A stretch of 64,000 bases of DNA from Lachnospiraceae bacterium (GTDB lineage: Bacteria > Bacillota > Clostridia > Lachnospirales > Lachnospiraceae). Under the pieces are notes generated by a model. That model was not told where the DNA came from, made no database searches, and saw only the letters and a list, made by a program, of their open reading frames with translations. The stretch lies in NCBI GenBank assembly GCA_024403455.1, contig JAKSRR010000006.1:47171-111170 (forward strand), given 5' to 3'. Shown piece by piece: positions 12,084 to 37,893 of the stretch. The position numbers and the translations under genes were made by a program. Within the stretch, counting starts at the first letter, position 1. The number at the start of each line of letters is the position of its first letter.

Positions 12084-12863
12084 ATGAAAGTTGTACTTCT
12101 TGCCGGCGGAGCCGGAACACGAATCACAGAGGAAAGCCAGTATCGACCGAAACCGATGGTAGAAATTGGTGGGATGCCCATTTTATGGCATATCATGAAA
12201 GAGTATAGCCACTATGGGTTTAATGAGTTCATTGTTTGTGCCGGTTATAAGCAGGATTATATAAAAGAGTGGTTTAACCAGTATTTCTTATCCTCTAGTG
12301 ACATCACCTTTGATTACACGGAGGGAAGAAATGTCATTGTGCATGAGCAACGTACCGAGAAGTGGAAGGTCACTATCGTGGATACAGGATTAAATACCAT
12401 GACAGGTGGACGTATCAAAAGAGTGCAGAAGTACATTGGGGATGAACCATTTATGCTCACTTATGGAGATGCTGTGTGTGATGTAGATATTCAGGCGCTC
12501 CTTGATTTTCACCATTCACATAGAAAAGTGGCAACGTTAACATCTGTAATTCAAAAACAGGAAAAGGGAGTGCTGGATATTAATGAAGTGGGGGCAGTGC
12601 GGTGTTTTAGAGAAAAGCAGCCTTCCGATGGTACCCCCATCAATGCAGGATATATGGTGCTGCAGCCAGGAATTTTTGATTATTTGGAAGACGATTCCAC
12701 TGTTTTTGAAAAGGTGGCACTGGAAAAGTTAGCAGCAGAAGGGGAATTGATGAGTTATGTGCATAAAGGCTTTTGGCAATGTATGGATTCCCTTAGAGAA
12801 AAGCAGGAATTAGAACGAATCTGGGAACGAGGAAATGCTCCTTGGAAAAAATGGACGGATTAG
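12084..12863 (+). CDS. rfbF: Glucose-1-phosphate cytidylyltransferase
   Basis: Makes CDP-glucose from CTP and glucose-1-phosphate, the entry step to CDP-linked 6-deoxy and 3,6-dideoxy sugars. 259 residues. The nucleotidyltransferase signature LAGGAGTR is at residues 6-13, with RPKPMVEIGGMPILWHIM following and the metal-site LTYGDAVCDV segment near residue 130. GTGGGGGAA precedes the ATG. A hairpin terminator follows at once and rfbH has its own promoter, so it is a separate transcription unit although the three CDP-sugar genes (rfbF, rfbH, rfbG) belong to one pathway. Confidence 0.95.
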   Translation: MKVVLLAGGAGTRITEESQYRPKPMVEIGGMPILWHIMKEYSHYGFNEFIVCAGYKQDYIKEWFNQYFLSSSDITFDYTEGRNVIVHEQRTEKWKVTIVDTGLNTMTGGRIKRVQKYIGDEPFMLTYGDAVCDVDIQALLDFHHSHRKVATLTSVIQKQEKGVLDINEVGAVRCFREKQPSDGTPINAGYMVLQPGIFDYLEDDSTVFEKVALEKLAAEGELMSYVHKGFWQCMDSLREKQELERIWERGNAPWKKWTD

Positions 12864-12870
12864 TGAAAGA

Positions 12871-12893
12871 GAAGCCCAAGCGGGCTTCTTTTT
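12871..12893 (+). terminator. Terminator after rfbF
   Basis: GAAGCCC-AAGC-GGGCTTC followed by six T residues. Confidence 0.88.
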
Positions 12894-12925
12894 TATGGAG
12901 ACTTTTGGTCGAAATAGCCAATATA

Positions 12926-12934
12926 TGGTATAAT
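12926..12934 (+). promoter_or_regulatory. Extended -10 promoter before rfbH
   Basis: TGG immediately before TATAAT (12929-12934); the -35 (TTGGTC, 12905-12910) is poor. It probably drives the long polysaccharide operon beginning with rfbH. Confidence 0.6.
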
Positions 12935-12977
12935 ATTATAGGTTTATTTTGTGGAAATTTCGCTTGGAGAAAATATT

Positions 12978-14318
12978 ATGTCAACTTGGAAGAATGAGGA
13001 AGAGGCGCGTAACCAAATCAAGGAGTTGGTGGCAGCTTATTATCATGAATTTAAAGAAAAAAAGGATGCATTTAAAGAAGGAGATCGCATTTCTTATGCG
13101 GGTCGTGTCTTTGATGAGAAAGAGATGCAGGCTCTTACGGATGCGACACTGGATTTTTGGCTGACGACAGGACGTTTTGCGGATCGGTTTGAAAGTGAAT
13201 TTGGAAAGTGGATTGGCAGCAAGTTTGTCAGCATTGTGAATAGCGGTTCATCTGCCAATTTAATTGCATTCATGGCATTGACCTCTCCGCTTCTAGGTGA
13301 TAGACAGATTAAACGTGGGGATGAGGTAATAACAGTGGCAGGGGGCTTCCCTACCACTATCAGTGCCATTATGCAGTATGGTGCTGTGCCGGTATTTGTG
13401 GATATGACGGTTCCGCAGTATAACATAGATGTTACGCAGTTGGAGGCAGCTCTTTCTGAAAAAACAAAGTGTGTGATGATTGCACATACTTTAGGAAATC
13501 CCTTTGATTTGAAGGCTGTAATGGCTTTTTGTGAAAAACATAATTTATGGCTTGTTGAAGACAACTGTGATGCCCTAGGAACAAAGTATACCATTGATGG
13601 GACTACGAAATTTACTGGAACCTGGGGAGACATTGGTACCAGTAGTTTTTATCCCCCTCACCATATGACTATGGGGGAAGGTGGCGCTGTTTATACAGAC
13701 AATCCCTTATTGAACAGAATCATTCTTTCCTTCAGAGACTGGGGAAGAGACTGCGTATGCAAGTCTGGCCAGGATAATCGATGTGGTCACCGCTTTGATG
13801 GACAATTTGGACAACTTCCGGAAGGATATGATCATAAGTACGTATATAGCCACTTGGGATATAACTTAAAAGTTACGGATATGCAGGCGGCAATAGGTTG
13901 CGCACAGTTGGAAAAGTTTCCATCTTTTATTGTAAAGAGACGACAGAATTGGGATAGACTGCGAAAGGCATTAGAGCCGGTAAGCGATAAACTAATTCTT
14001 CCAGAACCAGCAGAAAGCAGTGAACCGTCCTGGTTTGGATTTTTGATTTCGGTAAAGCCCGAGAGCGGAAAAACAAGAAAAGATGTTACTGGGTACTTGG
14101 AAGAACATAATATTCAGACAAGACTACTCTTTGGTGGCAATATTACAAAGCAGCCCTGTTTTGATTCTATCCGTGGAACCGATGCATATCGGTGTGTAGG
14201 GGATTTGAAGACCACCGACTATATCATGGAAAATGCATTCTGGGTTGGCGTATATCCAGGTATGTCAGATGCGATGATTGATTATATGGCAAAATGTATT
14301 GTTGAGGCAGTTAAGTAA
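12978..14318 (+). CDS. rfbH: CDP-4-keto-6-deoxyglucose 3-dehydrase (E1)
   Basis: PMP-dependent iron-sulfur dehydrase that removes the C3 hydroxyl of CDP-4-keto-6-deoxyglucose on the way to 3,6-dideoxy sugars. It belongs to the DegT/AryC1 aminotransferase fold but has His228-His229 (SFYPPHHMTMGEGG) where aminotransferases have the PLP lysine, the hallmark of E1. Iron-sulfur ligands are visible as Cys259-x-Cys261-x7-Cys269, with Cys197 as a likely fourth. The ATG at 12978 is preceded by TTGGAGAAAA; the frame extends to 12951 from a GTG without a ribosome site. Its partner reductase (E3, RfbI/AscD) is not in this window. Confidence 0.94.
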   Translation: MSTWKNEEEARNQIKELVAAYYHEFKEKKDAFKEGDRISYAGRVFDEKEMQALTDATLDFWLTTGRFADRFESEFGKWIGSKFVSIVNSGSSANLIAFMALTSPLLGDRQIKRGDEVITVAGGFPTTISAIMQYGAVPVFVDMTVPQYNIDVTQLEAALSEKTKCVMIAHTLGNPFDLKAVMAFCEKHNLWLVEDNCDALGTKYTIDGTTKFTGTWGDIGTSSFYPPHHMTMGEGGAVYTDNPLLNRIILSFRDWGRDCVCKSGQDNRCGHRFDGQFGQLPEGYDHKYVYSHLGYNLKVTDMQAAIGCAQLEKFPSFIVKRRQNWDRLRKALEPVSDKLILPEPAESSEPSWFGFLISVKPESGKTRKDVTGYLEEHNIQTRLLFGGNITKQPCFDSIRGTDAYRCVGDLKTTDYIMENAFWVGVYPGMSDAMIDYMAKCIVEAVK

Positions 14319-14360
14319 AGAAACTACAAAAACATTAATGTAGGAAGAGTGTGTAAGCAT

Positions 14361-15965
14361 ATGAACACGAAGATGGAATTGTTAGATTGTACGTTACGGG
14401 ACGGAGCATACATTGTGGATGCTGCATTTGGTGTTGCTGCAATTAAGGGAATCATTAAAAAATTAGAATTGGCACGCGTTGAAATTATCGAATGTGGCTG
14501 GTTAAAGAATACGGAACATAAAGAAGGGACTAGCTTCTATCATGTTCCTGGGGATTTGGAACGTTATCTGCAGGGGAAGAATGAGAACCAGACCTATGTG
14601 GCAATGATTGACTGGGATAGATATGATTTAAGCTTTCTTCCGATATGTGATCATAAGTCGATTGATGCTATACGAGTGGTATTTCCGCAGAATAAATTTC
14701 GGGAAGGAATTGCTGTAGGCGCGCGGATTTTGGAAAAAGGCTACAAAGTCTATTTTCAGGCTGCTAATACCTATGGATATTCTGAAGCGGAGTTAATTGC
14801 TCTTGCAGAAGAAACAAATAAGGTTATGCCGGTTTCTCTTTCGGTTGTAGATACTTTTGGTACGATGTATGAAGAGGACCTGGATCGGATTGTAAGAACC
14901 CTTCACAAGGTGCTTGCTCCCTCCATCAAATTGGGATTTCATTCACATAACAATCAGCAACTATCTTTTGCACTATGTATGCATTTTGCAAAGCTGTGTG
15001 AGGAATTAGGAAGAGACGCTGTTATTGATGCAAGTTTATGCGGTATGGGACGTGGTGCTGGGAATGCAACCACAGAGTTGGTTTCTAGTTTCTTAAACAA
15101 AAAATATAGTGGCAACTATGATATGAATGAAATATTGGATGCCATTGATGTGTATATGGAAGAGTACAAACAGAAATTTACTTGGGGGTATTCAACACCA
15201 TACTTTATTGCTGGTATGTACTGTACCCATGTCAATAATATTGCCTATCTGTTGAATAATCACAGAACAAATGCGAAAGACATGCGTAGTGTGATTGACA
15301 GCATGGCGGCAGAGGATCGCAAAAAATATGATTATGATGTGTTAGAGGAGCATTTTTTAGCATATCAGTCTAGTTTGGTGGATGACGAAAAGACAATCAG
15401 TATGTTAAAGGAATCTTTTAAAGACAGAGAGATTCTTCTTGTATTTCCTGGAACTAGTGCAAAAAAACAACAAGATTGTATTAAAGAAAATGCAAAAGGG
15501 GCGCTAGTGATTGGCGTAAATTCTGTTGTGCCAGGATATGCGTATGACTATATTTTCTTTAGCCGTAATGGTCGTAGTGATTATGCGAAGGAGAATTATA
15601 CGAAACTTTATGAACAGGCAAAAAAAATCATTACCTCCAATATTAAAAAGGATGCAGAAGATGGGGAGTATATTCTGAATTACAATATGCTTATTAAAAG
15701 GGGCTGGGAGCACTTTGATGATTCAGGAATCATGTGCCTGCGATTATTAAATCGTCTAAATGTTAAAAAAGTATATTTGGCAGGGTTTGATGGTTTTGCA
15801 GAAAACTATGAGGATAGTTATGCAGATACGTCCATTCCTCACGTAAATCCAGGAAAAAGCTGGGCAGAATTAAATGCAGAAATTAAAGAGATGCTGCAGG
15901 ACTTCCTAGCGACAGTTGATGGTCGCATGGAAATCAAGTTTTTGACAGAGAGTAAATATCAGTAA
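14361..15965 (+). CDS. DRE-TIM aldolase-like protein with C-terminal MptE/Maf-like domain
   Basis: The first ~300 residues are an HMG-CoA-lyase/4-hydroxy-2-oxovalerate-aldolase-type barrel. LLDCTLRDGAYI gives the metal-binding Asp and Arg, and GFHSHNNQQLS gives the histidine metal ligands. Such enzymes cleave or form C-C bonds next to a 2-oxo acid. The last ~200 residues form a different domain, with LLVFPGTSAKK, YNMLIKRG and VYLAGFDGF, resembling the Rossmann-like MptE/DUF115 or Maf glycosyltransferase fold. That assignment is from pattern only. It starts a tight run of sugar-pathway genes and is followed 11 bases later by the cyclase. The ATG at 14361 is my choice: AGGAAGAG lies 11 bases upstream. 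A GTG at 14349 is too close to that site. Substrate unknown. Confidence 0.82.
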   Translation: MNTKMELLDCTLRDGAYIVDAAFGVAAIKGIIKKLELARVEIIECGWLKNTEHKEGTSFYHVPGDLERYLQGKNENQTYVAMIDWDRYDLSFLPICDHKSIDAIRVVFPQNKFREGIAVGARILEKGYKVYFQAANTYGYSEAELIALAEETNKVMPVSLSVVDTFGTMYEEDLDRIVRTLHKVLAPSIKLGFHSHNNQQLSFALCMHFAKLCEELGRDAVIDASLCGMGRGAGNATTELVSSFLNKKYSGNYDMNEILDAIDVYMEEYKQKFTWGYSTPYFIAGMYCTHVNNIAYLLNNHRTNAKDMRSVIDSMAAEDRKKYDYDVLEEHFLAYQSSLVDDEKTISMLKESFKDREILLVFPGTSAKKQQDCIKENAKGALVIGVNSVVPGYAYDYIFFSRNGRSDYAKENYTKLYEQAKKIITSNIKKDAEDGEYILNYNMLIKRGWEHFDDSGIMCLRLLNRLNVKKVYLAGFDGFAENYEDSYADTSIPHVNPGKSWAELNAEIKEMLQDFLATVDGRMEIKFLTESKYQ

Positions 15966-15976
15966 GGAGAAGGAAA

Positions 15977-17038
15977 ATGAAAAATTTACATATTAAGGCA
16001 AAACTATATGATTATGATGTGGAGTTTACAGATGATTTTTCGAAACAGATAAGTGCTTACTCTGAAAAAACAGCATTTGTTATTGATCAGAATGTTTTTA
16101 AACTGTATAAGGAAAAAATATTAATTCCTAAAGAGCGAGTGTTTTTGATGGATGCGGTCGAAGACAAAAAGAACATGGATACGGTTATGGATATTATTCG
16201 TTACCTAAAAGAACTTGGTGTGCGAAAGGATTGGACAGTAGTTTGTGTTGGTGGTGGAATTACGCAGGATGTAACAACAGTAGCTGCAGATTTATTCCTT
16301 AGAAATGTTGACTGGCACTTGTTTCCAACAACATTACTATCTATGTGTGACTCGTGTATTGGTGGGAAATGTGGTATAAATCTTGATTCGTACAAGAATC
16401 AGATTGGTGTCTTTTATCCACCGAAAAGAATAGTGATTGATACTGCTTTTATCGATACGCTTACGCCTGGAGATTATCTCAATGGGTGGGGGGAGATACT
16501 GAAATTTGCTTTGACAAATGGCGAAGAATTTTTTGATAAGATAGTGTCCGAGAAGTCATTTATTCCATGTGAACGTATAGAAGAATATATTTATGATGGA
16601 TTAAGAGTTAAACAGGCAGTGATTGAAGAGGACGAGTATGAGAGCGATATTAGACGAATCCTTAATTATGGTCATACCTTTGGTCATGCATTAGAAGCAT
16701 ATACCCATCATGTGATTCCCCATGGTAAGGGTGTCATCTGGGGAATTGATGTAGTGAACTACATAGGGTATAAAAAAGGTCTCATTAGCGAATTGTATTA
16801 TTTGGAAATTAAGGATTTAATCAGAAGAGCTTTTTTGCTGGAAGAGATTGTAATTGATGATGCAAGAAAACTGTACGAGATTATAAAAACGGATAAGAAA
16901 GTTAAAAATGGCTCATTGAGTTTTGCGATGTTGGATGCTCGGAGTCATTTAATAGTATATCCTATTGAATTAAACGATGAATTATTCAATTTATTTGTGG
17001 AGTATTTGGTGACAACACATGAATACTATAGCCATTGA
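15977..17038 (+). CDS. Dehydroquinate-synthase-like sugar phosphate cyclase
   Basis: Family of NAD- and metal-dependent cyclases that turn a sugar phosphate into a carbocycle (AroB, 2-epi-5-epi-valiolone synthase, 2-deoxy-scyllo-inosose synthase). 353 residues with family landmarks: VGGGITQD (91-98), FPTTLLSMCDS (116-126), GGKCGIN (129-135), KNQIG (140-144). Likely metal ligands are Glu173 (GWGEILK), His233 (GHTFGH) and His249 (HGKGV). It is unlikely to be the housekeeping AroB, because it sits inside a surface-sugar operon and differs from AroB around DSSVGGKTG (here DSCIGGKCG). AAGGAGAAGG precedes the ATG. The next gene, a kinase, overlaps its end by 20 bases, so the two are translationally coupled. 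Confidence 0.85.
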   Translation: MKNLHIKAKLYDYDVEFTDDFSKQISAYSEKTAFVIDQNVFKLYKEKILIPKERVFLMDAVEDKKNMDTVMDIIRYLKELGVRKDWTVVCVGGGITQDVTTVAADLFLRNVDWHLFPTTLLSMCDSCIGGKCGINLDSYKNQIGVFYPPKRIVIDTAFIDTLTPGDYLNGWGEILKFALTNGEEFFDKIVSEKSFIPCERIEEYIYDGLRVKQAVIEEDEYESDIRRILNYGHTFGHALEAYTHHVIPHGKGVIWGIDVVNYIGYKKGLISELYYLEIKDLIRRAFLLEEIVIDDARKLYEIIKTDKKVKNGSLSFAMLDARSHLIVYPIELNDELFNLFVEYLVTTHEYYSH

Positions 17039-18344
17039 TTGTGGAGCTAGTTTTATCAAAGGGGCGCTGTTTGTAGACGGCAAGATTGTTTTTGAGACCA
17101 AAAGACAGTCTCCAGTGGTGCATGAAAGAAACATTCCGATTATAGAACCCATTCAAGTTAAAGCACTAGAAGAACTGGTGGTGCAAATTCTAAAAGTGTT
17201 AACGAAGCATCTGCCAGATAATAAATACACAGTATGCGTTTCAAATGAAATGCATGGTTTTTTGTTGGTTGATGAATGTGGAGAACCGGTAACAGACTAT
17301 ATTTCATGGCAGGTTTGTTTAGGCGGTGGTTTAGGAAAAAAGTATTTTGAACAGACATGTTTTTATGAAGAGATAAAAAACACAGGGATGCAACTTAGAG
17401 AGGGACTTCCTTTATGTAACTTGTGGGCTCTATTGCACCAAGAATTTCCTCAATATGAAGTATCACAAAAGACAAAGTACAGATTTTGTGATTTGGGAAG
17501 TTATATTATAGAGAGAATAAGTGGTATGAAGATGGAGAGCCATCCAACAAATGCTGGAGGCACAGGGTTATTTGATCTTCGTAGTGGAGAATTTAACAGG
17601 AAACTGATTGACGCAGTGGTTAGTGACACTGGTTATTGCGTAGAGTTTCCGATGATTGGTACTAAAAAGTATGTAGATGGCAATGTAACATATAAGCCGG
17701 CTATTGGGGATCATCAAGCAGCCTTGTTAGGTGCGAACATGAGTGAAAAGGGTCTGTCGTTTAATTTGGGGACTGGAGCACAGGTTGCAGTTGTTAGGCC
17801 AATGTACAATATATCCGATAGATGGCAGGTACAACCTTACTTCGACGGAAAATACGTTCACAGAATTCCGTTTTTACCTTCTGGAAGAGGGCTTAATGTA
17901 TATTTTAGATTTTTTAAAAGTATTTTTGAAGCGGTCAATGTTAGTATAGAAGATTCTTTATTATGGACAGCAATTCAGCGGACATCAGAAAAAACATTGA
18001 ATCCCAAACTGACTGTGGATTTAAGCTTCTTTGAAAATAAAGTTACAGATCATACAGTTGGAAGTATACAGAATATAGGAGAGTATGACCTGACTTTTGA
18101 AAATGTAGTTGTTTCTATTTTATGCCAAATGTCTGAAAACTTTATGGAAGCATCAAGGACTCTTTTAGACGATGAATTAAATACAATACAAGAAATATGT
18201 TTTACCGGAGGGATTGCTGAAAGGTTTAAACGAATAAGAGAAGAAATAGTATCGAATTTCCCGACAGATGTTGTTGTGAGAATGACAGATAAGGAAACCT
18301 TCTTAGGATTAAATAGGTATGCCAATTTAGTAAATGAGGACTAG
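17019..18344 (+). CDS. FGGY-family carbohydrate kinase (sedoheptulokinase-like)
   Basis: ATP-dependent sugar kinase of the FGGY family. 441 residues, slightly short for the family (about 500). The N-terminal phosphate motif is AIDCGASFIKG with Asp7. The sugar-binding strand reads SNEMHGFLLVDECGEPV (75-91), closest by eye to sedoheptulokinase/xylulokinase patterns (SSQMHG). The catalytic Asp is Asp231 in IGDHQAALLG, and the second ATPase motif is LGTGAQ (250-255). It overlaps the cyclase gene by 20 bases and ends one base before the TPP-enzyme ATG. The tight coupling suggests it makes the phosphorylated substrate for the cyclase or phosphorylates its product. The exact sugar is unknown. Confidence 0.82.
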   Translation: MNTIAIDCGASFIKGALFVDGKIVFETKRQSPVVHERNIPIIEPIQVKALEELVVQILKVLTKHLPDNKYTVCVSNEMHGFLLVDECGEPVTDYISWQVCLGGGLGKKYFEQTCFYEEIKNTGMQLREGLPLCNLWALLHQEFPQYEVSQKTKYRFCDLGSYIIERISGMKMESHPTNAGGTGLFDLRSGEFNRKLIDAVVSDTGYCVEFPMIGTKKYVDGNVTYKPAIGDHQAALLGANMSEKGLSFNLGTGAQVAVVRPMYNISDRWQVQPYFDGKYVHRIPFLPSGRGLNVYFRFFKSIFEAVNVSIEDSLLWTAIQRTSEKTLNPKLTVDLSFFENKVTDHTVGSIQNIGEYDLTFENVVVSILCQMSENFMEASRTLLDDELNTIQEICFTGGIAERFKRIREEIVSNFPTDVVVRMTDKETFLGLNRYANLVNED

Positions 18345-18345
18345 A

Positions 18346-20139
18346 ATGAGAATTAAAGTATCAGATTATATTGCTAATTTTCTGTGCGAAAAAAACATAA
18401 ATACAGTGTTTACTGTGGTTGGTGGTGGCGCGATGCATCTAAACGACTCATTTGGACACCACGAACAAATCCGATGTATTTATAATCACCATGAACAAGC
18501 ATGTGCTATGGCGGCTGAAGGATATGCAAAATATACTAATGTGCCAGCTGTAGTTTGTGTTACGAGTGGTCCTGGTGCAATTAATGCTTTGAATGGAATT
18601 GCAGGGGCCTATCAGGATTCGGCTCCGATGTTGGTGTTTACAGGTCAAGTAAAGCGTGCACTTCTTGAGAAAGAAAGTGGTTTGGAATTACGGACTTTGG
18701 GTGGACAAGAGTTTGATATCGTTTCTGCAGTTGGGAAGATGACAAAGTACGCGGAAACGGTCATGGATCCAGAGAAGATTCGGTGCTATCTTGAAAAAAT
18801 GTATTATATGGCAACTACAGGAAGAAAAGGCCCTTGCTTGCTAGATATCCCTATTGATGTGCAGGGAGCATATATTGAAACGGAGTTTTTAGAATCGTAT
18901 GATTTCGATAGAGAGACTCTTAATAATTATGTAGATTGGGAACTACTTGTCGATAAACTAGAACAAGCGGAGCGCCCGATTATTTATGCTGGCAATGGGA
19001 TACGCTATTCTGGAGGAATGGAGTTGTTTCGAGAGCTGATTGAGAAATATCAGATTCCGGTTGTTACATGTTGGGATAGTATTGACCTGATTGAAACTGA
19101 CCATCCTTTATATTGTGGTAGAGCGGGAATTATGGGAGACAGACCCGGGAATTTTGCCGTTCAAAATAGTGATTTTCTTCTGTGTATTGGAAACAGACTT
19201 AGTATATATCAGGTTGGCTATAATATTAGCACGTGGGCAAGAGGCGCATATGTTGTTGCTGTAGATATTGATGAAAATGAGTTGAAGAAGCCGATTATAA
19301 GGGTTGATTTACCAATCTGTATGGATGCAAAGGCCTTTATGGATGCAATGATAGAAAAGATAGAAGGGCCTAGTACTGCAGAAGCGTGGAGAAAACAATG
19401 CCTCATATGGAAAGAAAAGTATCCTGTTGTGATGCAGAAACAGAGGATGCAAAGACAAACAAATGTGTATGCATTTATCGAACAACTTAGTAAGATGTTG
19501 CCAGACAGAGCATGTACTGTTGTGTCAAATGGCTCAGCAAGTGTGGTAGGTAGTGCTGCATATTTTATAGGAAAAGATAGTCGCTTTATTATGAATTGTG
19601 CAATGTCCTCTATGGGATACGGATTGCCAGCTGCTATTGGCGCTGGCATTGCGATGAATGGGAAGCAAGCTGTTGTATGTATTGAAGGTGACGGAAGTAT
19701 AATGATGAATTTGCAGGAACTGGCGACAGTGGTTGCAAATCGTCTTCCAATTAAAATTTTTGTGATAAATAACAATGGATACCATCAAATTCGACAGACT
19801 CAGACAAATATATTCGGAAATGGTCTAGTGGGTGTTGGACCGGAAAGTAAGGATTTGCTTTTTCCGAATTTTGAGAAACTTTCAGAAGCTTTTGGAATTA
19901 TTTATAAAAAAATAGTGGAAAATAGTGAAAGTGATCTTGTTATCAGAGAGATTTTAAGAAATGATGAACCAGTATTATGCGAAGTATTTGTTGATATTGA
20001 GCAGAAGTTTGAACCGAAATCCGCAACGAAGAGGCTTCCAGATGGCTCGCTATATAGCCCACCCTTGGAAGATCTTGCGCCATTCTTATCTAGAGAAGAA
20101 TTGAAACAAAATATGTATATACCGATGATTGAGGAGTAG
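18346..20139 (+). CDS. Acetolactate-synthase-like thiamine pyrophosphate enzyme
   Basis: Full three-domain ThDP enzyme of about 597 residues. The catalytic glutamate is Glu50 (YNHHEQACAMAAEGYA). The central FAD/nucleotide-type domain spans about 195-340. The diphosphate motif is GDGSIMMN (448-455), with NNN at 475-477. It is not the biosynthetic ilvB, as no small subunit gene is adjacent and it lies among CDP-sugar genes. The nearest characterised idea is YerE of yersiniose synthesis, which adds an acyl unit from pyruvate to a CDP-4-keto-3,6-dideoxy sugar. IolD-type ring hydrolases are related too. The ATG at 18346 is preceded by TGAGGAC, so the start 12 bases upstream is rejected. Confidence 0.85.
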   Translation: MRIKVSDYIANFLCEKNINTVFTVVGGGAMHLNDSFGHHEQIRCIYNHHEQACAMAAEGYAKYTNVPAVVCVTSGPGAINALNGIAGAYQDSAPMLVFTGQVKRALLEKESGLELRTLGGQEFDIVSAVGKMTKYAETVMDPEKIRCYLEKMYYMATTGRKGPCLLDIPIDVQGAYIETEFLESYDFDRETLNNYVDWELLVDKLEQAERPIIYAGNGIRYSGGMELFRELIEKYQIPVVTCWDSIDLIETDHPLYCGRAGIMGDRPGNFAVQNSDFLLCIGNRLSIYQVGYNISTWARGAYVVAVDIDENELKKPIIRVDLPICMDAKAFMDAMIEKIEGPSTAEAWRKQCLIWKEKYPVVMQKQRMQRQTNVYAFIEQLSKMLPDRACTVVSNGSASVVGSAAYFIGKDSRFIMNCAMSSMGYGLPAAIGAGIAMNGKQAVVCIEGDGSIMMNLQELATVVANRLPIKIFVINNNGYHQIRQTQTNIFGNGLVGVGPESKDLLFPNFEKLSEAFGIIYKKIVENSESDLVIREILRNDEPVLCEVFVDIEQKFEPKSATKRLPDGSLYSPPLEDLAPFLSREELKQNMYIPMIEE

Positions 20140-20142
20140 ATA

Positions 20143-20883
20143 ATGGGAAAATTATCAGGGAAAGTTGCATTGGTTACCGGTGGAACCTCTGGAATAGGAG
20201 GCGCATCAGTAGAACTCTTTGCGGTGGAAGGCGCGAGTGTTATTGCTGTGGCGAGAAACACTGAGAGAGGCGAACAGTTTGCGAGTGAACTGAGAATTAG
20301 AGGGTATAGTGTAGAATTTTATTGTTGTGATGTGGCGAATAGGTTGGATCTAGAAAAATTGAAGTGTTATATTGAGCAGAAATATGGAAGACTTGATATT
20401 TTGTTTAATAATGCAGGTTTACTTCGAACCGCCGCGTTGGAGGAAATTACGGACGAAGACTGGGATGCGATGTATGATACGAATGTAAAAGCTGTAATGC
20501 ATACTTGCCAGCTTTTTTTTCCTATGTTAAAAGAAGCGAGAGGCGTTGTTTTAAATAATGCCTCTATAAATGGGTTACACTCTTATATAAAAGGTGTAAG
20601 AAGCTATATGTATGCGTCTACAAAATCGGCATTAATTCAGTTTACTAAATATTTAGCTAAGAATTATGCTCCGGATATTCGAGTGAATGCATTATGTCCA
20701 GGGATAACGGTAACAAATCTATTTACTAATAGAGATTTTTCTAGATTTAAAGATTCGAATTTATTAGGTAGAATGGCCGATCCTATGGAAATTGCAAAAG
20801 TTGCATTGTTTTTATGCTCTGATGATTCTTCTTTTATTACAGGGGCGACAATAGTTGCTGATGGTGGAGAAACTATTAAGTAA
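20143..20883 (+). CDS. Classical short-chain dehydrogenase/reductase
   Basis: 246 residues, a classical SDR. Cofactor motif TGGTSGIG (12-19), NNAG (89-92), catalytic Ser141, Tyr157 and Lys161 (YASTK). GAGGAG lies just upstream within the end of the preceding gene, three bases away. In context it should oxidise or reduce a hydroxyl/ketone of the sugar or carbocycle produced by the block. Substrate cannot be read from sequence. 92 bases separate it from the next gene, the largest gap inside the block. Confidence 0.88.
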   Translation: MGKLSGKVALVTGGTSGIGGASVELFAVEGASVIAVARNTERGEQFASELRIRGYSVEFYCCDVANRLDLEKLKCYIEQKYGRLDILFNNAGLLRTAALEEITDEDWDAMYDTNVKAVMHTCQLFFPMLKEARGVVLNNASINGLHSYIKGVRSYMYASTKSALIQFTKYLAKNYAPDIRVNALCPGITVTNLFTNRDFSRFKDSNLLGRMADPMEIAKVALFLCSDDSSFITGATIVADGGETIK

Positions 20884-20975
20884 CAAACATATAGCAATTG
20901 TGAAATATGCAGAAACATATTTACGTAATATGAATCTGGCGTCCGATAAAATGTGTTAGAAAAAGAGATTGATTT

Positions 20976-21887
20976 ATGAATAATGTAATTGTTACCGGTG
21001 CAACATCCATGATTGGAATTGCTACAATCAAAGCACTAATTTTGCATGGCGTTAGGATTTTTGCGATTTCTCGTAAAGATAGTAAGCGAAGATGCGCATT
21101 ACCAACGTCTGAGTTGATTACGTATATTGAGTGTGATTTAGATTCACTCGGGAAGATTAATTTTGAAGAAGCGTGTGATACGTTGTTTCATTTTGGGTGG
21201 GGGTTTACGGATCGAACTACAAGAGATAATCCCTATCTGCAACTGAAGAATGTGCAGTATACGTTAGATGCTGTTGAACTTGCAAAGCGAAGTGGCTGTA
21301 AGGTATTTATTGGAGCCGGCTCTCAGGCTGAATATGGTTTTCAAAATAATCTCATTGATGAGAATGCGCAGGAGCGTCCTACGGTCTGTTATGGTATTAC
21401 GAAATTAGCCGCTGGAAAACTTGCACGAAAACTCTGTGAACAATACGAAATGCTTTGCATATGGACAAGAATATTTAGTGTGTATGGTGTCAATGATTCA
21501 GATAATGTGATGACATCCTATGCAGTGAATCAATTCCTAAAAGGTGAAAAGGCATATTTTTCAAAAGGATTACAAATCTGGAATTATTTATTTGAAGAAG
21601 ATGCTGGGAATTATTTTTATGCTATAGGCGAGAATGCAAAAGAAAGTATGATTCTGAATGTTGCAGGGTGTGAGAATAAGCCACTTCGAGAGTTTGTACA
21701 GGAAATGGTCAAGGCGTTAGGTAAGGATTTTCAGTATGAGTTTAGTGATGAAGAATCGGCATCTTACAATGGAATTGAACCTTGCATAAATAAGCTTGAA
21801 TCATTAACTGGATATGTGCCAACGGTTAGTTTTGAAGAAGGAATTAAACGTATTCTGGAAAGAAGAATAAGTGATGAAAAAAATTAG
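20976..21887 (+). CDS. NAD-dependent epimerase/dehydratase family protein (extended SDR)
   Basis: 303 residues. Extended-SDR features: TGATSMIG (7-14) as the NAD-binding turn, a HFGWGF segment around residue 72, Tyr139-x3-Lys143 (YGITK) and RIFSVYG near residue 158. It resembles the nucleotide-sugar reductases and epimerases of 3,6-dideoxy pathways (RfbJ, RfbS, and YerF of yersiniose), which act on the 4-keto or on the added side chain. A final reduction in this locus is a reasonable role. AAAGAGATTG precedes the ATG. The next gene overlaps its 3' end by 14 bases. Confidence 0.87.
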   Translation: MNNVIVTGATSMIGIATIKALILHGVRIFAISRKDSKRRCALPTSELITYIECDLDSLGKINFEEACDTLFHFGWGFTDRTTRDNPYLQLKNVQYTLDAVELAKRSGCKVFIGAGSQAEYGFQNNLIDENAQERPTVCYGITKLAAGKLARKLCEQYEMLCIWTRIFSVYGVNDSDNVMTSYAVNQFLKGEKAYFSKGLQIWNYLFEEDAGNYFYAIGENAKESMILNVAGCENKPLREFVQEMVKALGKDFQYEFSDEESASYNGIEPCINKLESLTGYVPTVSFEEGIKRILERRISDEKN

Positions 21888-22845
21888 TGTTATTGTTCCC
21901 TGTTACAATGAAGAAGAAAATATTCCTTTTGCATACGCTGCTATAAAAGCGCAGCTGGATTTACTTGGTGACAAATATGATTATGAGATACTTTTTGCAG
22001 ATAATGGATCTTCTGATCGGTCGGAAGAAGTTTTTGAAAAGATTGCTGCCGATGATAAAAATGTAAAAGTAATATTTAATCAGACAAATTTCGGACCAGA
22101 TCGTTCTGTGACAAATTTGTATAAAAGGACCACGGGAGAACTAATTATTGGAATATGCTGTGATTTGCAGGAACCTCCAGAAATGATACCAGAATTTGTT
22201 AAATGTTGGGAAGAGACACATTGTGATGTGGTTTTTGGGCAGAAGACAAAAAGCAGGGAGAATCCGATTAAGTTTCTTTGCAGAAAAATGTATTATGGAA
22301 TCATTGATGGAATGAGTGATTGTAAGCAGTTCCATCAGGTGACGGGATTTGGGCTTATTACGAAAGAAGTCCGAGATATTATTCTACAGGAAAAGAGTCA
22401 GGATCCAGAGATGAATCTTCGGCATATTGTGCCTCAGTATGGATTTGATGTGAAACTTTTACCATATACACAGAGGAAACGAGAACGTGGAAAAAGTTCC
22501 TATAATTTATATAGATATTATGATTTTGCAATTTCCAGTTTGTGTTCTACGTCTATAAAGCCGCTCCGATTGATGACTATTTTTGGCATGACTACATCAT
22601 TTGTTTGTTTTGTTGTAGCCATCGTATATTTCATATATAAATTAACGCATTGGTACACTTTTGATGCTGGGATGGCACCGATTGTGATTGGACTGTTTTT
22701 TATTGCGGGTGTACTGTTGTTATGCATGGGCATCTTGGGAGAGTATGTTAGCATATTGATGCGTAGAGTTACAGACCGTCCTATTGTTGTAGAAAAACGA
22801 ACGCTCAATATGGACGAAGATAGAAAGACTGATGAAGATAAGTAA
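21874..22845 (+). CDS. GT2 glycosyltransferase with two C-terminal membrane helices
   Basis: Polyprenyl-phosphate-sugar synthase-like enzyme of the DPM1/GtrB type. Begins KKISVIVPCYNEEENI. Acidic motifs are ADNGSSDRS near residue 50 and CCDLQEPPEMI near 97, and KRERGKSSYNLYRY is near 206. Two hydrophobic helices near residues 230-255 and 265-295 anchor it to the membrane. It should transfer a sugar from a nucleotide to undecaprenyl phosphate at the cytosolic face. The ATG at 21874 directly follows an in-frame GTG. It overlaps both neighbours, so expression is coupled. Confidence 0.9.
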   Translation: MKKISVIVPCYNEEENIPFAYAAIKAQLDLLGDKYDYEILFADNGSSDRSEEVFEKIAADDKNVKVIFNQTNFGPDRSVTNLYKRTTGELIIGICCDLQEPPEMIPEFVKCWEETHCDVVFGQKTKSRENPIKFLCRKMYYGIIDGMSDCKQFHQVTGFGLITKEVRDIILQEKSQDPEMNLRHIVPQYGFDVKLLPYTQRKRERGKSSYNLYRYYDFAISSLCSTSIKPLRLMTIFGMTTSFVCFVVAIVYFIYKLTHWYTFDAGMAPIVIGLFFIAGVLLLCMGILGEYVSILMRRVTDRPIVVEKRTLNMDEDRKTDEDK

Positions 22846-24079
22846 GAATCCTTACATATGGAATAGCATAGCAGGTATCATTAATGCATCCCAAGCAATC
22901 ATTCTGGGAATGGTTATTACAAGAACAAACGGCTTGGGAGACGCAGGAATTTTAGCACTCGCTTTTTCTTTAGGAAACTTGTTTATGAATGTAGGACACT
23001 TTGGTGTTCGAAAGTTTCAAGTGACGGATGTAAAGAATGAATACTCTTTCTCAGATTATTTTTCTATTCGTATACTTACGGTTGCACTCATGCTTCTTGC
23101 CTGTGGACTATATCTTCTGATTGTAGGGAGAAGCAGAGCTTACGATTTTTCGAAGGTTATTACCATTCTGATGATGTGCTGCATATATGCGATGGAGTCC
23201 ATGGAAGATGTATTTTGGGGATTTTACCAGTTAAAAAATCGACTGGATATAGGCGGAAAAATCTTTTCGATTCGCTGGCTATGCATCATGGGGGCAGTTT
23301 CAGGCGTACTTTATTGGAAGCAGAATTTGCTGTTGGCTTCTGTAGTTGGTGTTGTTGTTAGCGGTCTAGTTCTTTGTATCTCCTTAGCAATAACGTATCC
23401 GTCATTTAGAGAAACAATAAAGTGGAAGACGACAAAACATAGCTTTGGCATTATTAAAGCCTGCTTCCCATTATTTCTTGCTGGTTTCTTGTCTTACTAT
23501 GTAACCAGCTCACCCAAGTATGCCATAGATAAATATTTTAATAGCGAGGTGCAGGCATGCTACAGCTTTGTGTCTATGCCGGTATTCGTTATAGATTTAT
23601 TGAATATGTTTTTGTATATGCCGATATTGGTAAGCATGGCAGGGGAGTGGGAAACTGGCAATGTAGAGGCATTTCTAAAAAGAATAAAAAGACAGGTGCT
23701 TTTTATTGTAGGTATATCAGGAGCTTGTTTGCTTGGCGGATTCTTCTTGGGAATACCAGTGCTTTCCGTGTTGTATGGCGTAGAACTAACTGAATACAAA
23801 GGTGTATTAATGCTTCTTTTAGGTGCAGGTGCATTTTTGGCTTTTTCAGGTTTCTTTGTTACGGTACTTACAATTCTCCGAAAGCAGTTTGTAGCTATGG
23901 GTATTTATGGAATAGCCGCGTTATTTGCGCTACTGTTTATGAACCCGATGATGCAGAAACATGGACTGGAGGGTGGAGTCATATATTATATTCTATTGAT
24001 GGCCGCGATTTCCGTAGCTTATTTAGTATGTATTATCGTATTTATCACCAAAAAGAAAAAAGGGATGCATGATGAATAA
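22832..24079 (+). CDS. Oligosaccharide flippase (Wzx-like)
   Basis: 415 residues with about 12 hydrophobic segments in the MATE/MVF-like arrangement of polysaccharide exporters. It begins with an NSIAGIINASQAIILGMVI segment typical of Wzx N-termini and ends with a short Lys-rich tail. It should flip undecaprenyl-linked sugar or repeat units across the plasma membrane. It overlaps the GT2 gene by 14 bases and the rfbG gene by 11. Substrate specificity cannot be predicted. Confidence 0.88.
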   Translation: MKISKNPYIWNSIAGIINASQAIILGMVITRTNGLGDAGILALAFSLGNLFMNVGHFGVRKFQVTDVKNEYSFSDYFSIRILTVALMLLACGLYLLIVGRSRAYDFSKVITILMMCCIYAMESMEDVFWGFYQLKNRLDIGGKIFSIRWLCIMGAVSGVLYWKQNLLLASVVGVVVSGLVLCISLAITYPSFRETIKWKTTKHSFGIIKACFPLFLAGFLSYYVTSSPKYAIDKYFNSEVQACYSFVSMPVFVIDLLNMFLYMPILVSMAGEWETGNVEAFLKRIKRQVLFIVGISGACLLGGFFLGIPVLSVLYGVELTEYKGVLMLLLGAGAFLAFSGFFVTVLTILRKQFVAMGIYGIAALFALLFMNPMMQKHGLEGGVIYYILLMAAISVAYLVCIIVFITKKKKGMHDE

Positions 24080-25202
24080 TTTTTATAAAGATAAGAAAGT
24101 CTTAATTACTGGTCACACAGGCTTCAAGGGAGCCTGGATGGTGCAGATGCTTACAGATATGGGGGCAAAGGTATATGGATATGCCCTTCCTTCACCAACG
24201 GACCCGGCGCTTTTTAACTTGTTAAAATTGGAAAATAAGATGGAAAGCGAGAAGGGTGATATTCGTGACCTATTTCATCTGATGACTTTCTTTAAAAAGG
24301 TGCAGCCAGAGATTGTAATTCATATGGCAGCGCAACCTATTGTTCGTACATCTTATCAGGACCCCGTTGGAACTTACGAGACCAACGTTATGGGGACAGT
24401 AAATGTCTTAGAATGCATTAAACAGACAGCTTCTGTAAAGTCTTTTGTAAATGTTACAACGGATAAAGTATATAGAAACAATGAATGGGAGCGTGGCTAT
24501 AGAGAAGAGGATGAGTTATGTGGTTATGATCCATACAGTAATTCAAAGTCCTGTTCAGAGCTGGTAACAGATAGTTATCGTAACTCCTTTTTTGCAAGTT
24601 TACGAGAACTACAGGATATAAATGATGGCAATCTGCATTCTATGGATAATTATCCGGCAGAAATATCAGGAAAGAGAATATGTGCTATTTCAACCTGCCG
24701 TGCGGGAAATGTAATCGGTGGCGGTGATTTTGCAAAAGACAGAATTATTCCAGATTGTTTTCGCGCAGTGAAAGTAGGAGATGAGATTGTTGTTAGAAAT
24801 CCACATTCTACCAGACCCTATCAACATGTGCTTGAACCTGTGACGGCTTATTTAAAATTGGCTATGATGCAGTATAGAAATCCAGCACTTGCATCTGCAT
24901 ATAACATAGGCCCAGGGGATAAAGACTGTTTGACAACAGGATCTATTGTGAATCTTTTCTGCCTAAAATGGGAAACATTAACAGGCGAGCCGGCAAGTTG
25001 GAAAAATGTTTCGTTAGAGGGTCCTCACGAGGCAAACTTCCTGAAACTAGATTGTCAGAAGGCCAGAGACAAGTGGCAGTGGTCACCTGTCTGGAATATA
25101 GATAAAGCCATGGATATGGTGGTAGCCTGGTATGCCTATCTTTTAAGAGGTCATGATTTGCAGGAAATAACGAAAAAGCAAATTGAGGAGTATCTAGCAT
25201 AA
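24069..25202 (+). CDS. rfbG: CDP-glucose 4,6-dehydratase
   Basis: Extended SDR that converts CDP-glucose to CDP-4-keto-6-deoxyglucose, between the reactions of RfbF and RfbH. 377 residues, the usual length. The NAD turn is TGHTGFKG (about 14-21). The catalytic Tyr-Lys pair is in YDPYSNSK, and VTTDKVYRN carries the acid-base residues. RTSYQDPVGTYETNVMGT is typical of RfbG. Two adjacent ATG codons (24069 and 24072) can start it. It is the last enzyme gene of the CDP-sugar set and is separated from rfbH by the eight-gene block. Confidence 0.95.
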   Translation: MMNNFYKDKKVLITGHTGFKGAWMVQMLTDMGAKVYGYALPSPTDPALFNLLKLENKMESEKGDIRDLFHLMTFFKKVQPEIVIHMAAQPIVRTSYQDPVGTYETNVMGTVNVLECIKQTASVKSFVNVTTDKVYRNNEWERGYREEDELCGYDPYSNSKSCSELVTDSYRNSFFASLRELQDINDGNLHSMDNYPAEISGKRICAISTCRAGNVIGGGDFAKDRIIPDCFRAVKVGDEIVVRNPHSTRPYQHVLEPVTAYLKLAMMQYRNPALASAYNIGPGDKDCLTTGSIVNLFCLKWETLTGEPASWKNVSLEGPHEANFLKLDCQKARDKWQWSPVWNIDKAMDMVVAWYAYLLRGHDLQEITKKQIEEYLA

Positions 25203-25274
25203 TCGAGGACGTGAAGTCGTCGCATAGGAACGGCTACGTGTATGAAGAAATACGTTCATAAGTCGAAGTAGTAT

Positions 25275-27020
25275 ATGAGTAAAACTAAAAAAAGAAAAAA
25301 GAATATTATTGAATTTCTGATTATTAGTGCTGTGATTATTTTGCTGGAAGGCATTGTGTTCTGCTTTTTTAGTATGGATTTTCGCCTGCCTAATACTTAT
25401 CAAGGGGGCGATGGACTAGCTGAGCTTGCTAATATTAGGAAAATTGTCTATGGAGATGCAGACCGTTTGGGATGGCCTTATCACGAGAACGTTAGTAAGT
25501 ATTCCCCTGTATATAATCTCCCTTATGTAGGATTTATTAAAATTGCTTCTCTTTTTACAAAGGATGTTTTTTTACTTCAGAATTTAGTGACATTTTTAAT
25601 CCCATATTTAAATGTTATACTCTGTTTTTATGTGTTTAAATACTTAAAAGTAAATAGAGTTATAGCTTTGCTTGGAGCCATAGCATTTGGATTTTGTCCT
25701 TATGTACAAGCTCGTTTGTTTCATCATCCGGCTCTTGCGACCGTCGAGTTTATTCCAGTTGTCTTACTCTTATGTATATGGATTTATGAGGATGAAAACT
25801 TTTGCAAGATAAATAAGCAATATTTTAAAGATAAAAGACATATATTTACTCTCGTTATTGCTTTTTTTATCGCAAATAACGGAATGGTTTATTATCCGTT
25901 CTATTCATGTTTTCTACTAGTAGTAACAGGACTGGCAGCAAGTATAAACACCCAAAATATAAAACGTATATTTTCTTCTTTAACAGTATGTGTACAAATT
26001 GGATTTTTCTTGGCACTTGGATTCCTGCCAACGCTTATAGGAATGATGCAGGGATTAGGGAATGTGGCTACGCAAAACGCGGCTTATCGTGACGCGAGAA
26101 GAGCAGCATTTTATGGACTAGATATAAAAGCGATGTTTCTTAGCCCGCACGGATATGGCATTAAACCCTTGGTGTCAAAATATGAGTATTTGTTTGACTA
26201 TACGGCAGAAACTGGATATGCCTATATTGGTATTTTGGGTATTCTTGGCTTTGTTGTTGCCATGATATTTTTAGTTAAGTCCCCAAAACAGGAAAATAAA
26301 AATCAGGTGCGCATACGATTGATGTCGATCCTCATTGTTGCAATCCTTCTTCTTGGTGTTTCGAAAGGATTTGGGGTTATTGTGGCATTGGTTATCCCTA
26401 TGCTAAGTTGTTATGATCGAATCAATCCATTTTTTGTGGCTGCATGTATATTTTCATTAACTCTTTTAATAGAGGAACTTACTGCAAGACAACGAAAAAA
26501 TAAGTTGGTTTTATATACTGTATCAGTTATCGTTGCAGCACTGGCTACTGCTGAGATGAGCTGGTGTTACTTTTATACTAATAAGGCTGCAATGTATAAA
26601 ACAAAAGAACAGGTGGCTAGTGAAAACGCGTTTTTTCAGAATGTTGAAACAGTGGCGGGAGAAGATGGAATGATCTTTATGCTTCCCTATATGCAGTCTT
26701 TTGAAAATGGCTGGGTCTATGATATACAGGATTACGATCATTTACGCGCGTATCTGGCAACAGAAAATCTGCGATTTAGCTATGGAGGAACCAACCAAGA
26801 GAAGAATGATGACTGGTATGCCGAAGTTTCAGATATGGATCTTCCAGATATGATTTCAGAATTAAGGTCACATAAATTTTCAGGTATATATATAAATTTG
26901 AAGGGTTATGCGCAGGAAGATCACAGTTGGATTTTAGATTATTTTGAGAATTACTTCGATAAAGAAGATGCTGTGTCAGATAGTGAAGGTAAACTTTGGT
27001 ACTTTAGTTTAGTAGATTGA
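25275..27020 (+). CDS. Large polytopic membrane protein, GT-C-like
   Basis: 581 residues. One helix near the N-terminus, then a loop with YQGGDGLAELANI whose acidic residue occupies the place of the GT-C catalytic Asp, about ten more helices, and a ~130-residue soluble C-terminal part. It probably transfers sugars from polyprenyl phosphate carriers on the outer face of the membrane, the usual job of GT-C enzymes next to a flippase. No specific family could be named. Ribosome site weak (GAAGTAG). It is distinct from but built like the two other large proteins downstream. Confidence 0.75.
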   Translation: MSKTKKRKKNIIEFLIISAVIILLEGIVFCFFSMDFRLPNTYQGGDGLAELANIRKIVYGDADRLGWPYHENVSKYSPVYNLPYVGFIKIASLFTKDVFLLQNLVTFLIPYLNVILCFYVFKYLKVNRVIALLGAIAFGFCPYVQARLFHHPALATVEFIPVVLLLCIWIYEDENFCKINKQYFKDKRHIFTLVIAFFIANNGMVYYPFYSCFLLVVTGLAASINTQNIKRIFSSLTVCVQIGFFLALGFLPTLIGMMQGLGNVATQNAAYRDARRAAFYGLDIKAMFLSPHGYGIKPLVSKYEYLFDYTAETGYAYIGILGILGFVVAMIFLVKSPKQENKNQVRIRLMSILIVAILLLGVSKGFGVIVALVIPMLSCYDRINPFFVAACIFSLTLLIEELTARQRKNKLVLYTVSVIVAALATAEMSWCYFYTNKAAMYKTKEQVASENAFFQNVETVAGEDGMIFMLPYMQSFENGWVYDIQDYDHLRAYLATENLRFSYGGTNQEKNDDWYAEVSDMDLPDMISELRSHKFSGIYINLKGYAQEDHSWILDYFENYFDKEDAVSDSEGKLWYFSLVD

Positions 27021-27053
27021 ATAAAATGCCACCACTGGTGAAAAAATAGTGTA

Positions 27054-29126: not shown

Positions 29127-29135
29127 GAGACAAAT

Positions 29136-29684
29136 ATGAAGGAAGATACCCCCACTCTTATCAGTGGTGATACCATGCTATAACGAGAAAAAGTATATAG
29201 AAACGATTGTAGAACAGGTTCTCCAGACGAAGATTCCCCGTATGGAGATTATTATTGTTGATGATTGCAGTACAGATGGAAACCGTGACATCCTGGAAGG
29301 AAAGTTATGCGTCCAATCCTAAAACAAGGAGCAGATGTCTGTTATGGTTCCCGCTTTCTTAAGAGAAATGACAGGGGATATTTGGCTAATTTTCTTGCAA
29401 ATATGTTTTTGACGTGGCTTTCAAATCGATTCACAGGTCAGCATTTGACGGATATGGAGACGTGCTATAAGTGTTTCCGAAGAGAGGTTATTAAAAAGAT
29501 TGTTATAGAGGAAGATCGTTTTGGATTTGAACCGGAAATCACAGCAAAACTGGCAGCAAAGGGAATTCAGATTCGAGAAGTCCCGATTTCTTATAAACCA
29601 CGTACGAAAGAAGACGGGAAAAGCATTGGACTAAAAGATGGATTAAGAACGATATATTGTATTTGGAAGTATAGAAAAGGCTGA
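29136..29684 (+). pseudogene. Decayed GT2 glycosyltransferase (DPM1-like)
   Basis: Remnant of a polyprenyl-phosphate mannose/glucose synthase-like gene. From the ATG at 29136 the frame breaks after KEDTPTLIS. In another frame it resumes with VIPCYNEKKYIETIVEQ and IIIVDDCSTDGNRDI, ending at LEGKL. It then jumps to a third frame at ILKQGADVCYGSRF, reading intact to FGFEPEITAKLAAKG and the stop. The stretch that normally carries the DAD metal motif, about 50 residues, is missing at the second break. Two lesions including loss of the catalytic motif make it non-functional. A good ribosome site (AGGAGACAAAT) remains, so inactivation looks recent. Confidence 0.85.
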
Positions 29685-29692
29685 TTATTCGT

Positions 29693-35249: not shown

Positions 35250-35279
35250 GTGTACTTTGCGGTTACTTGCGGAGGATAT

Positions 35280-36713: not shown

Positions 36714-36722
36714 GTGGCTGGA

Positions 36723-37499: not shown

Positions 37500-37582
37500 A
37501 TTTTTGTTTACTTTATGCGTCCTATGTGCTATATTTATAGGCGTTGTGGGTGACCACAAACACTTTTTTGGAGGTACTTAAC

Positions 37583-37783
37583 ATGCAAGGTACAGTTAAG
37601 TGGTTTAATGCACAGAAGGGATATGGTTTCCTTTCTACTGAAGAAGGCAAGGATGTATTCGTACACTTCTCCGCTATTCAGAATGAGGAAGGTTACAAGA
37701 CCTTAAATGAGGGCCAGGCCGTAGAGTTCGACGTTGTTGAAGGCGCTAAGGGACCTCAGGCAGCAAATGTAATTAAGAAATAA
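37583..37783 (+). CDS. csp: Cold shock protein
   Basis: 66-residue nucleic-acid-binding CSD protein, an RNA chaperone. RNP1 KGYGFL is at residues 15-20 and RNP2 VFVHF at 28-32, with the start [11 protein letters not shown] typical of CspA/CspD of Firmicutes. TTGGAGG lies nine bases before the ATG. The frame can be extended upstream to 37544, but that region has no family similarity. Codons are strongly biased toward abundant ones, suggesting high expression. A long 3' tail (about 110 bases) precedes its terminator. Confidence 0.96.
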
Positions 37784-37893
37784 TTGCTGCAGACTTAGTA
37801 TCGCTGGGAATGTGCTTTAAGATAGATAAAGTAATGCTGTAAAAGTAAGAAATTTATTAGTTGAAGAGCAAGTTCAGAACGTAGTACAAAGTC

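Follow-up and report, generated by a model that had tools for sequence, protein, structure and literature searches.

A CDP-sugar locus of a Lachnospiraceae bacterium extends YerE-type branching by a module with an AroB paralogue

Introduction

In the yersiniose A pathway of Yersinia pseudotuberculosis, YerE, an enzyme dependent on thiamine diphosphate (ThDP), places a branch at C-4 of CDP-4-keto-3,6-dideoxyglucose; YerE-like enzymes use 2-oxo acids as donors, and more than 200 of them are predicted, the vast majority without an identified sugar structure (PMC12247030). The same acceptor and the same kind of branching are predicted for a block of 11 genes in a 64,000-nucleotide stretch of DNA from a Lachnospiraceae bacterium (assembly GCA_024403455.1, contig JAKSRR010000006.1, positions 47,171 to 111,170 of the forward strand; hereafter the window). 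Compared with the yersiniose A pathway, the block adds an aldolase fusion, a paralogue of the dehydroquinate synthase (DHQS) AroB, a kinase and a second short-chain dehydrogenase/reductase (SDR). With its donor module, which contains the AroB paralogue, the locus is an extension and a new variant of the YerE-type pathway to branched sugars, and its product is probably an uncommon branched sugar of the cell surface in a relative of gut and rumen species.

Two further described systems come close to this locus. The erwiniose pathway of Pectobacterium atrosepticum has a YerE-like enzyme, ErwE, which prefers long hydroxylated donors of the 4-hydroxy-2-oxo acid type, and MMAR_2332 of Mycobacterium marinum is said to be similar (PMC12247030). 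Acids of this type are within the reach of HMGL aldolases. We know of no AroB paralogue or kinase in the erwiniose pathway. MMAR_2332 belongs to the caryophyllose system, whose 1,3,4,5-tetrahydroxyhexyl side chain (PMC5706390) matches in its six carbons the decarboxylated 3,7-dideoxyheptulosonate proposed below. By our own reading this side chain is 3,7-dideoxyhept-2-ulosonate minus CO2. The host, glycan and gene cluster of the caryophyllose system differ from those of the window. Caryophyllose also occurs in Burkholderia caryophylli; a paper on Burkholderia pseudomallei considered in this connection lists unrelated genes. Among the matches listed by a literature search that mostly excluded subscription papers, none joined an AroB paralogue with rfbF, rfbG and rfbH and a ThDP enzyme.

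The acceptor pathway and the branching enzyme

The block lies at 12084-25202, downstream of dapA and dapB, and consists of closely packed genes, all on the plus strand, in the order rfbF, rfbH, ALD, CYC, KIN, TPP, SDR1, SDR2, GT2, a membrane protein and rfbG, with overlaps at five of the ten gene junctions. A first-pass annotation of this DNA had drawn the locus from 12978, the ATG of rfbH, to 25202, the stop of rfbG. All the genes it named were found on the plus strand where it had placed them, and rfbF, just upstream of 12978, is part of the block as well. The enzymes other than the rfb products (ALD, CYC, KIN, TPP, the SDRs and GT2) are clear at the superfamily level only.

The rfb genes all exceed curated cut-offs: rfbF, for glucose-1-phosphate cytidylyltransferase (12084..12863), scores 349 bits against TIGR02623 (cut-off 300.25); rfbG, for CDP-glucose 4,6-dehydratase (24069..25202), 438 bits against TIGR02622 (cut-off 278); and rfbH, for CDP-4-keto-6-deoxyglucose 3-dehydrase (12978..14318, with a possible alternative in-frame GTG start at 12951), 713 bits against NF011936 (cut-off 423). 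At the level of enzyme families, RfbF, RfbG and RfbH together would make CDP-4-keto-(3),6-dideoxyglucose. RfbH holds the stretch PPHHMTMGEGG, in which a histidine presumably stands where the lysine that binds pyridoxal phosphate is usual.

TPP (18334..20139) has three TPP_enzyme domains and finds its best structural match in the Protein Data Bank (PDB) in 8rph (E 3e-112), with 379 bits compared with 235 for the best acetolactate synthase. The 8rph structure is that of JanthE, a YerE-like enzyme (PMC12188165). Against the acetolactate synthase model TIGR00118, TPP scores 365 bits, under the curated cut-off of 538, and a separate ilvB-like gene, 31% identical to TPP, lies elsewhere in the source genome. 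TPP also has a C-terminal tail of the JanthE type, which the other ilvB-like protein of the genome does not have. The tail pattern occurs in 42 of 47 ThDP enzyme sequences, including TPP, after widening upon inspection (the first version matched 13 of 47); of the five misses, four look by eye like variants and the fifth (L078) is ilvB-like. Patterns for the ThDP glutamate and GDG motifs matched 30 and 22 of the 47 (42 for another GDG pattern), and no inference is made from them. TPP is placed with the YerE-like ThDP enzymes, and carboligation onto a ketone acceptor is its predicted activity. Together with the rfb genes in TPP's own cluster, the structural match supports the first-pass proposal of a CDP-dideoxy-sugar pathway with TPP-dependent C-branching.

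The AroB paralogue

CYC (15977..17038), an AroB/DHQS paralogue with DHQ_synthase and DHQS_C domains, is related to TIGR04425, its best NCBIfam family, at 323 bits (cut-off 400), and scores 246 bits against the aroB model TIGR01357 (cut-off 305). TIGR04425 is named as an AroB-related putative sugar phosphate phospholyase, cyclizing; unlike CYC, the member at L044 passes its cut-off (447 bits), with an SDR gene beside it and a PseF-like gene near. No paper using the family name was found among the best 30 of 39 matches. The role proposed below would give this wide AroB-related family, which bears a putative model name at NCBI, a concrete and testable function.

The CYC family keeps the DHQS residue set. 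In 78 sequences (76 cluster members, CYC itself and the CYC part of a fusion at L024) the metal and substrate positions R130, D146, K152, N162, E194 and K250 are identical throughout, as are those matched to R264, N268, H271, H275, H287 and K356; the names and numbers are those we take to apply to Aspergillus DHQS. Variation is seen at K197, where 21 sequences have His, and at L267, where 20 have Phe or Met. Cys127 is constant in all 78, while AroB has Ser in 14 and Ala in one of 15 sequences. Selection of open reading frames dropped the CYC sequences of L053, L059 and L076, and one of the six AroB loci (L089) yielded no sequence; in the tree, a branch with support 1.0 separates the CYC relatives from five AroB sequences. 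An EEVS-like identity for CYC was also considered. ValA, of the EEVS type, has 14 active-site fingerprint residues (PMC4426668), and its alignment row has M, D and P where CYC has K212, N230 and H237. On these three positions, read by hand, CYC appears DHQS-like and an EEVS-like reading is disfavoured.

Genomes with CYC generally hold a second enzyme of the family. A separate, stronger PF01761 match was found in all nine CYC-bearing genomes of one sample and in four of five distinct CYC genomes of another (G397, G398, G399 and G330, the last identical with G400), the exception being G163 (completeness 87%). In the source assembly (2.23 Mb, completeness 82%) no PF01761 gene other than CYC was seen, although the assembly does encode chorismate synthase; we take the lone copy to reflect the incompleteness of the assembly. 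None of ALD, KIN, TPP, SDR1, SDR2, GT2 or the rfb genes was found in 15 neighbourhoods of true aroB genes, 13 from CYC-bearing genomes and two from others (G335, G004). One of these neighbourhoods (L114) gave a weak 2-hydroxyacid-dehydrogenase match, and the side clusters c8-c18 were each sought with one representative query, which distant members could escape.

The aldolase fusion, the kinase and the reductases

ALD (14349..15965) joins an HMGL-type pyruvate aldolase domain (residues ~1-344; 63.6 bits) to a C-terminal domain (~345-538). The protein lies below the curated cut-off for 4-hydroxy-2-oxovalerate aldolase (79.7 bits against 229, NF006049) and matches the DmpG-type fold, helical domain included, with what we take to be the DmpG-type metal-binding residues present. 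The C-terminal domain belongs to no clear family. It resembles the MptE-like cluster weakly (hhalign probability 40%, E 3e-4; the HMMER profile of this comparison was polluted by the L024 fusion), and the fold search hardly covered it. MptE-like proteins are separate genes in some Bacteroidota-type loci. At L024:8360-11056 ALD and CYC are themselves fused in a single open reading frame of 898 residues.

KIN (17019..18344), which overlaps CYC by 20 bases, is an FGGY-family kinase (PF00370, FGGY_N, 48.6 bits). Its best NCBIfam match is gluconokinase, at 37.9 bits far below the cut-off, and its sole PDB match is the gluconate kinase 3gbt (32.8 bits); KIN motif patterns matched 18 of 31 and 25 of 31 sequences, from which no inference is made. 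SDR1 (20143..20883), a classical SDR (PF13561, 177 bits), is the proposed partner of CYC, and SDR2 (20976..21887), an extended SDR (PF01370, 108 bits), the proposed branch ketoreductase.

Conservation of the module

When contigs were scanned with four aligned cyclases, 108 CYC relatives emerged, of which the best 80 were kept; the 60 of these loci that span 15 kb or more form the set for counting (L025, L028 and L029 come from the same genomes as G330, G379 and G163). The search for the same gene order, proposed as a check by the first-pass annotation, showed that CYC, KIN and ALD recur together with TPP in loci of Bacillota, and that other phyla repeat the combination of CYC, TPP and an SDR. 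The block is a genuine and conserved gene set, not a chance assembly.

Three patterns can be distinguished. In 25 loci, mostly of Bacillota, with CYC 55-67% identical, TPP is present in 23, KIN in 22 and ALD in 20, several contigs being short; a PseF-like gene is present in the two that lack TPP (L026, L030). Loci of other phyla combine TPP, SDR, CYC and rfb genes with one of two condensing enzymes, a NeuB-like synthase (c18) or an HpcH/HpaI-like aldolase (c15). The third pattern, which occurs in many Bacteroidota as well as in others, joins CYC to an SDR, a GmhA-like isomerase, IolG-like and PGDH-like dehydrogenases, a PseF-like cytidylyltransferase, a YhcH/NeuAc-anomerase-like protein and, in some loci, an HpaI-like aldolase, all of these family names except YhcH and CYC resting on scores below NCBIfam cut-offs. 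An SDR1-like gene directly adjoins CYC in 65 of 79 loci.

Within the counting set, 34 loci have TPP only, 19 a PseF-like gene only, one (L063) both and six neither. The 35 TPP loci contain HMGL (16), c15 HpcH (9), NeuB (8) or none of these (2), and never two together; exactly one of three unrelated families that condense pyruvate or phosphoenolpyruvate (PEP) is therefore present in 33 of them. Among 26 KIN loci, 15 have HMGL, seven NeuB, one both and three none, and c15 HpcH is absent from all. The 20 PseF-like loci have an HpaI-like c16 gene (9), others (3) or none of the tallied families (8), and a YhcH/NeuAc-anomerase-like gene occurs in 13 of them compared with none of the 35 TPP loci. Among Actinomycetota, CYC relatives at E up to 1e-50 were found in five of 296 genomes, including the query's own (G401); two of the other four, G606 and G412, were examined. 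The G606 locus (L122) holds rfbH, rfbF, rfbG, CYC, TPP (32% identity) and c15 HpcH; the G412 locus L123, which by eye starts like shikimate kinase, and L124, with a third PF01761 copy of G405, hold no module gene.

The branching enzyme is more widely distributed than the AroB paralogue. Of 397 genomes in the Lachnospiraceae family set, 123 encode a TPP enzyme of this type (E up to 1e-100) and four a close relative of CYC (E up to 1e-60). Twenty TPP loci, hand-picked and drawn largely from the highest-ranking matches, three of them below 10 kb, have SDR2-like genes in 15 (14 without CYC), GT2-like in 13, rfbF-like in 11, ALD-like in six (L157, L160, L167, L170, L172, L174), SDR1-like in one (L172) and KIN in none; CYC occurs in one only (L170, with ALD, 35% identity), and 19 are without it. 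These counts suggest a core of TPP, the rfb genes, SDR2 and GT2, a first extension by ALD and a second by KIN, CYC and SDR1. The first-pass view that cyclase and kinase lie outside the yersiniose pathway is borne out, and the two look like a separate module. C-branched sugars may be widespread in the Lachnospiraceae, given how common YerE-like ThDP enzymes are. In four loci with the window's TPP type (L011, L015, L025, L029) glyoxalase-like and FkbM methyltransferase genes occur throughout, and radical SAM/SPASM genes in three.

A proposed pathway and its alternatives

The reading that we tentatively prefer, with slightly less than an even chance of being correct, is that the product of the locus is a CDP-activated 3,6-dideoxyhexose that bears at C-4 a long branch of the caryophyllose type and is passed by GT2 to polyprenyl phosphate for export. 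The families are those described above, from which the substrates and product are predicted. RfbF, RfbG and RfbH would supply CDP-4-keto-(3),6-dideoxyglucose as acceptor. ALD would join pyruvate and a short aldose to a 3-deoxy-2-ulosonic acid, and KIN, acting between ALD and CYC, would phosphorylate its far end. CYC would strip the phosphate from 3-deoxyheptulosonate 7-phosphate by oxidation, beta-elimination and reduction of the AroB type, the ring closure not being kept, and SDR1 would trap the resulting ketone to give 3,7-dideoxyhept-2-ulosonate. TPP would then decarboxylate this acid and attach the resulting acyl anion at the keto group of C-4, SDR2 would reduce the new branch ketone and GT2 would hand on the sugar. 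The best-fitting product would be a caryophyllose-type C12 sugar, its side chain the decarboxylated 3,7-dideoxyhept-2-ulosonate. In c15 loci an already phosphorylated aldehyde could make KIN needless.

HMGL and HpcH aldolases, like NeuB synthases, join pyruvate or PEP to an aldehyde and so form 2-oxo-3-deoxy acids. The interchange of these three families, the near-exclusive exchange of TPP for PseF-like genes and the anomerase-like genes together suggest that the module's product is a 2-oxo acid and that the keto acid is kept. Since the DHQS residue set is kept as well, phosphate elimination of the AroB type without lasting ring closure is proposed for CYC. Extended to the whole AroB paralogue family (TIGR04425 and relatives in many phyla), the argument yields a somewhat less likely proposition: its members may be redox-neutral, phosphate-eliminating deoxygenases, not cyclases, which with a neighbouring SDR and a pyruvate- or PEP-condensing enzyme would give terminally deoxygenated 2-oxo-3-deoxy acids. 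ThDP enzymes would then transfer these acids to CDP-keto sugars, or the acids would be activated in the form of CMP sugars.

Several points weigh against this account. Enzymes of the DHQS type normally cyclise, ring closure is what one would expect of an enzyme with the complete DHQS active site, and 2,6-diketo acids cyclise readily. SDR1 in the window follows TPP and does not adjoin CYC. RfbH requires a reductase partner, the usual E3 reductase being a Fer2-domain protein; no Fer2-type partner was found in a search of the source genome (G000), and no Fer2-domain protein in five of six relatives (G330, G398, G399, G407, G408, G409), G408 giving one partial match, while G330, a genome of the same family and one of the five, shows no rfbH in its locus. 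The TPP/PseF exchange is not strict: L063 has both genes, and L167 has TPP, two ALD-like genes and a PseF-like gene (30%). Two TPP loci and eight PseF-like loci hold no tallied condensing family, and the Fisher p-values of these counts are too small, since loci of the same phylum are related. The main texts of the four papers searched on mycobacterial lipooligosaccharide clusters, whose accessible passages give no full gene list, do not contain the word 'dehydroquinate'. The pathway is read from genes, with enzyme activities and glycan predicted, and the order of ALD before CYC in it is tentative.

Were this acid to undergo ring closure of the AroB type at C2, the keto group needed by TPP would be lost; a retained carbocycle is less favoured. 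The first-pass annotation had suggested that cyclase and kinase point to a ring-shaped building block. On such a reading KIN and CYC would form a cyclitol ketone or aldehyde that enters the side chain, for example as aldolase acceptor, to give a two-part ring sugar like the ring-containing bradyrhizose or caryose. The normal chemistry of the AroB family and the preserved residue set speak for this, as does a Gfo/Idh dehydrogenase (best NCBIfam match inositol 2-dehydrogenase, below cut-off) in 22 of 80 CYC loci; the comparative evidence for a 2-oxo acid and the three DHQS-like positions speak against it. We regard a retained ring as unlikely but worth serious weight. Of the branched or ring-bearing product first envisaged, the branch is supported, while the carbocycle now appears less likely than an open-chain branch of the caryophyllose type. 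Somewhat less likely still is deoxygenation before the aldolase step, in which CYC and SDR1 would make a terminally deoxygenated aldose from an aldose phosphate and ALD would then add pyruvate, reaching the same product class in another order. In its favour, a 4-deoxytetrose with pyruvate would yield the same donor, and GmhA-like phosphosugar isomerases occur in 20 of the 60 loci, none of these with TPP; against it, the ALD-CYC fusion of L024, the weak gluconokinase match of KIN and the DHQS-type residues better fit an acid as substrate of CYC.

TPP could instead perform plain yersiniose-type branching with pyruvate; ALD, KIN, CYC and SDR1 would in that case serve the synthesis of another sugar in the glycan. 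Such simple loci do exist, nine of the 20 sampled TPP loci having TPP, SDR2-like and GT2-like genes without ALD and CYC, yet the close tie of TPP to CYC in 23 of 25 close-relative loci, with PseF-like genes in the other two, makes this improbable for the window. A chance meeting of a housekeeping DHQ synthase (CYC) with an acetolactate synthase (TPP) is hardly credible. It would accord with the lone PF01761 gene of an incomplete genome that has chorismate synthase; it is rejected on the separate PF01761 copies of other CYC genomes, the bare AroB neighbourhoods and the ilvB-like gene elsewhere in the source genome.

Neighbouring genes could serve as predictors of the donor of YerE-like enzymes. 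We propose that loci without an aldolase make a two-carbon branch, those with an aldolase only, for example, a four-carbon branch, and those with aldolase, kinase, AroB paralogue and SDR a six-carbon branch or carbocycle.

Export and neighbouring genes

GT2 (21871..22845) resembles the polyprenol-phosphate glycosyltransferases PgfS (165 bits) and ArnC (118 bits), both scores being below cut-off, and has two hydrophobic segments near its C-terminus. The membrane protein that follows (22832..24079; ~8 hydrophobic segments, relatives in L024 and L034), which the first-pass annotation called a flippase, is a putative flippase without a Pfam or NCBIfam match. Beyond rfbG lie three large plus-strand proteins (25275-27020, 27054-29126 and 29693-31735) of 10-12 hydrophobic segments each, GT-C-like by look only and likewise without a match in Pfam or NCBIfam; that they belong to the system is a guess. 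A PgfS/ArnC-like GT2 with two hydrophobic segments, together with these multi-pass proteins (22832-31735), suggests that the sugar is moved to polyprenyl phosphate, flipped and attached outside the cell. Further downstream (33747-43223) are genes for an MBOAT protein (33747-35249, with a DltB match below cut-off), an acyltransferase (38354-39505) and a YfhO-like protein (40770-43223), which suggest further surface-polymer genes.

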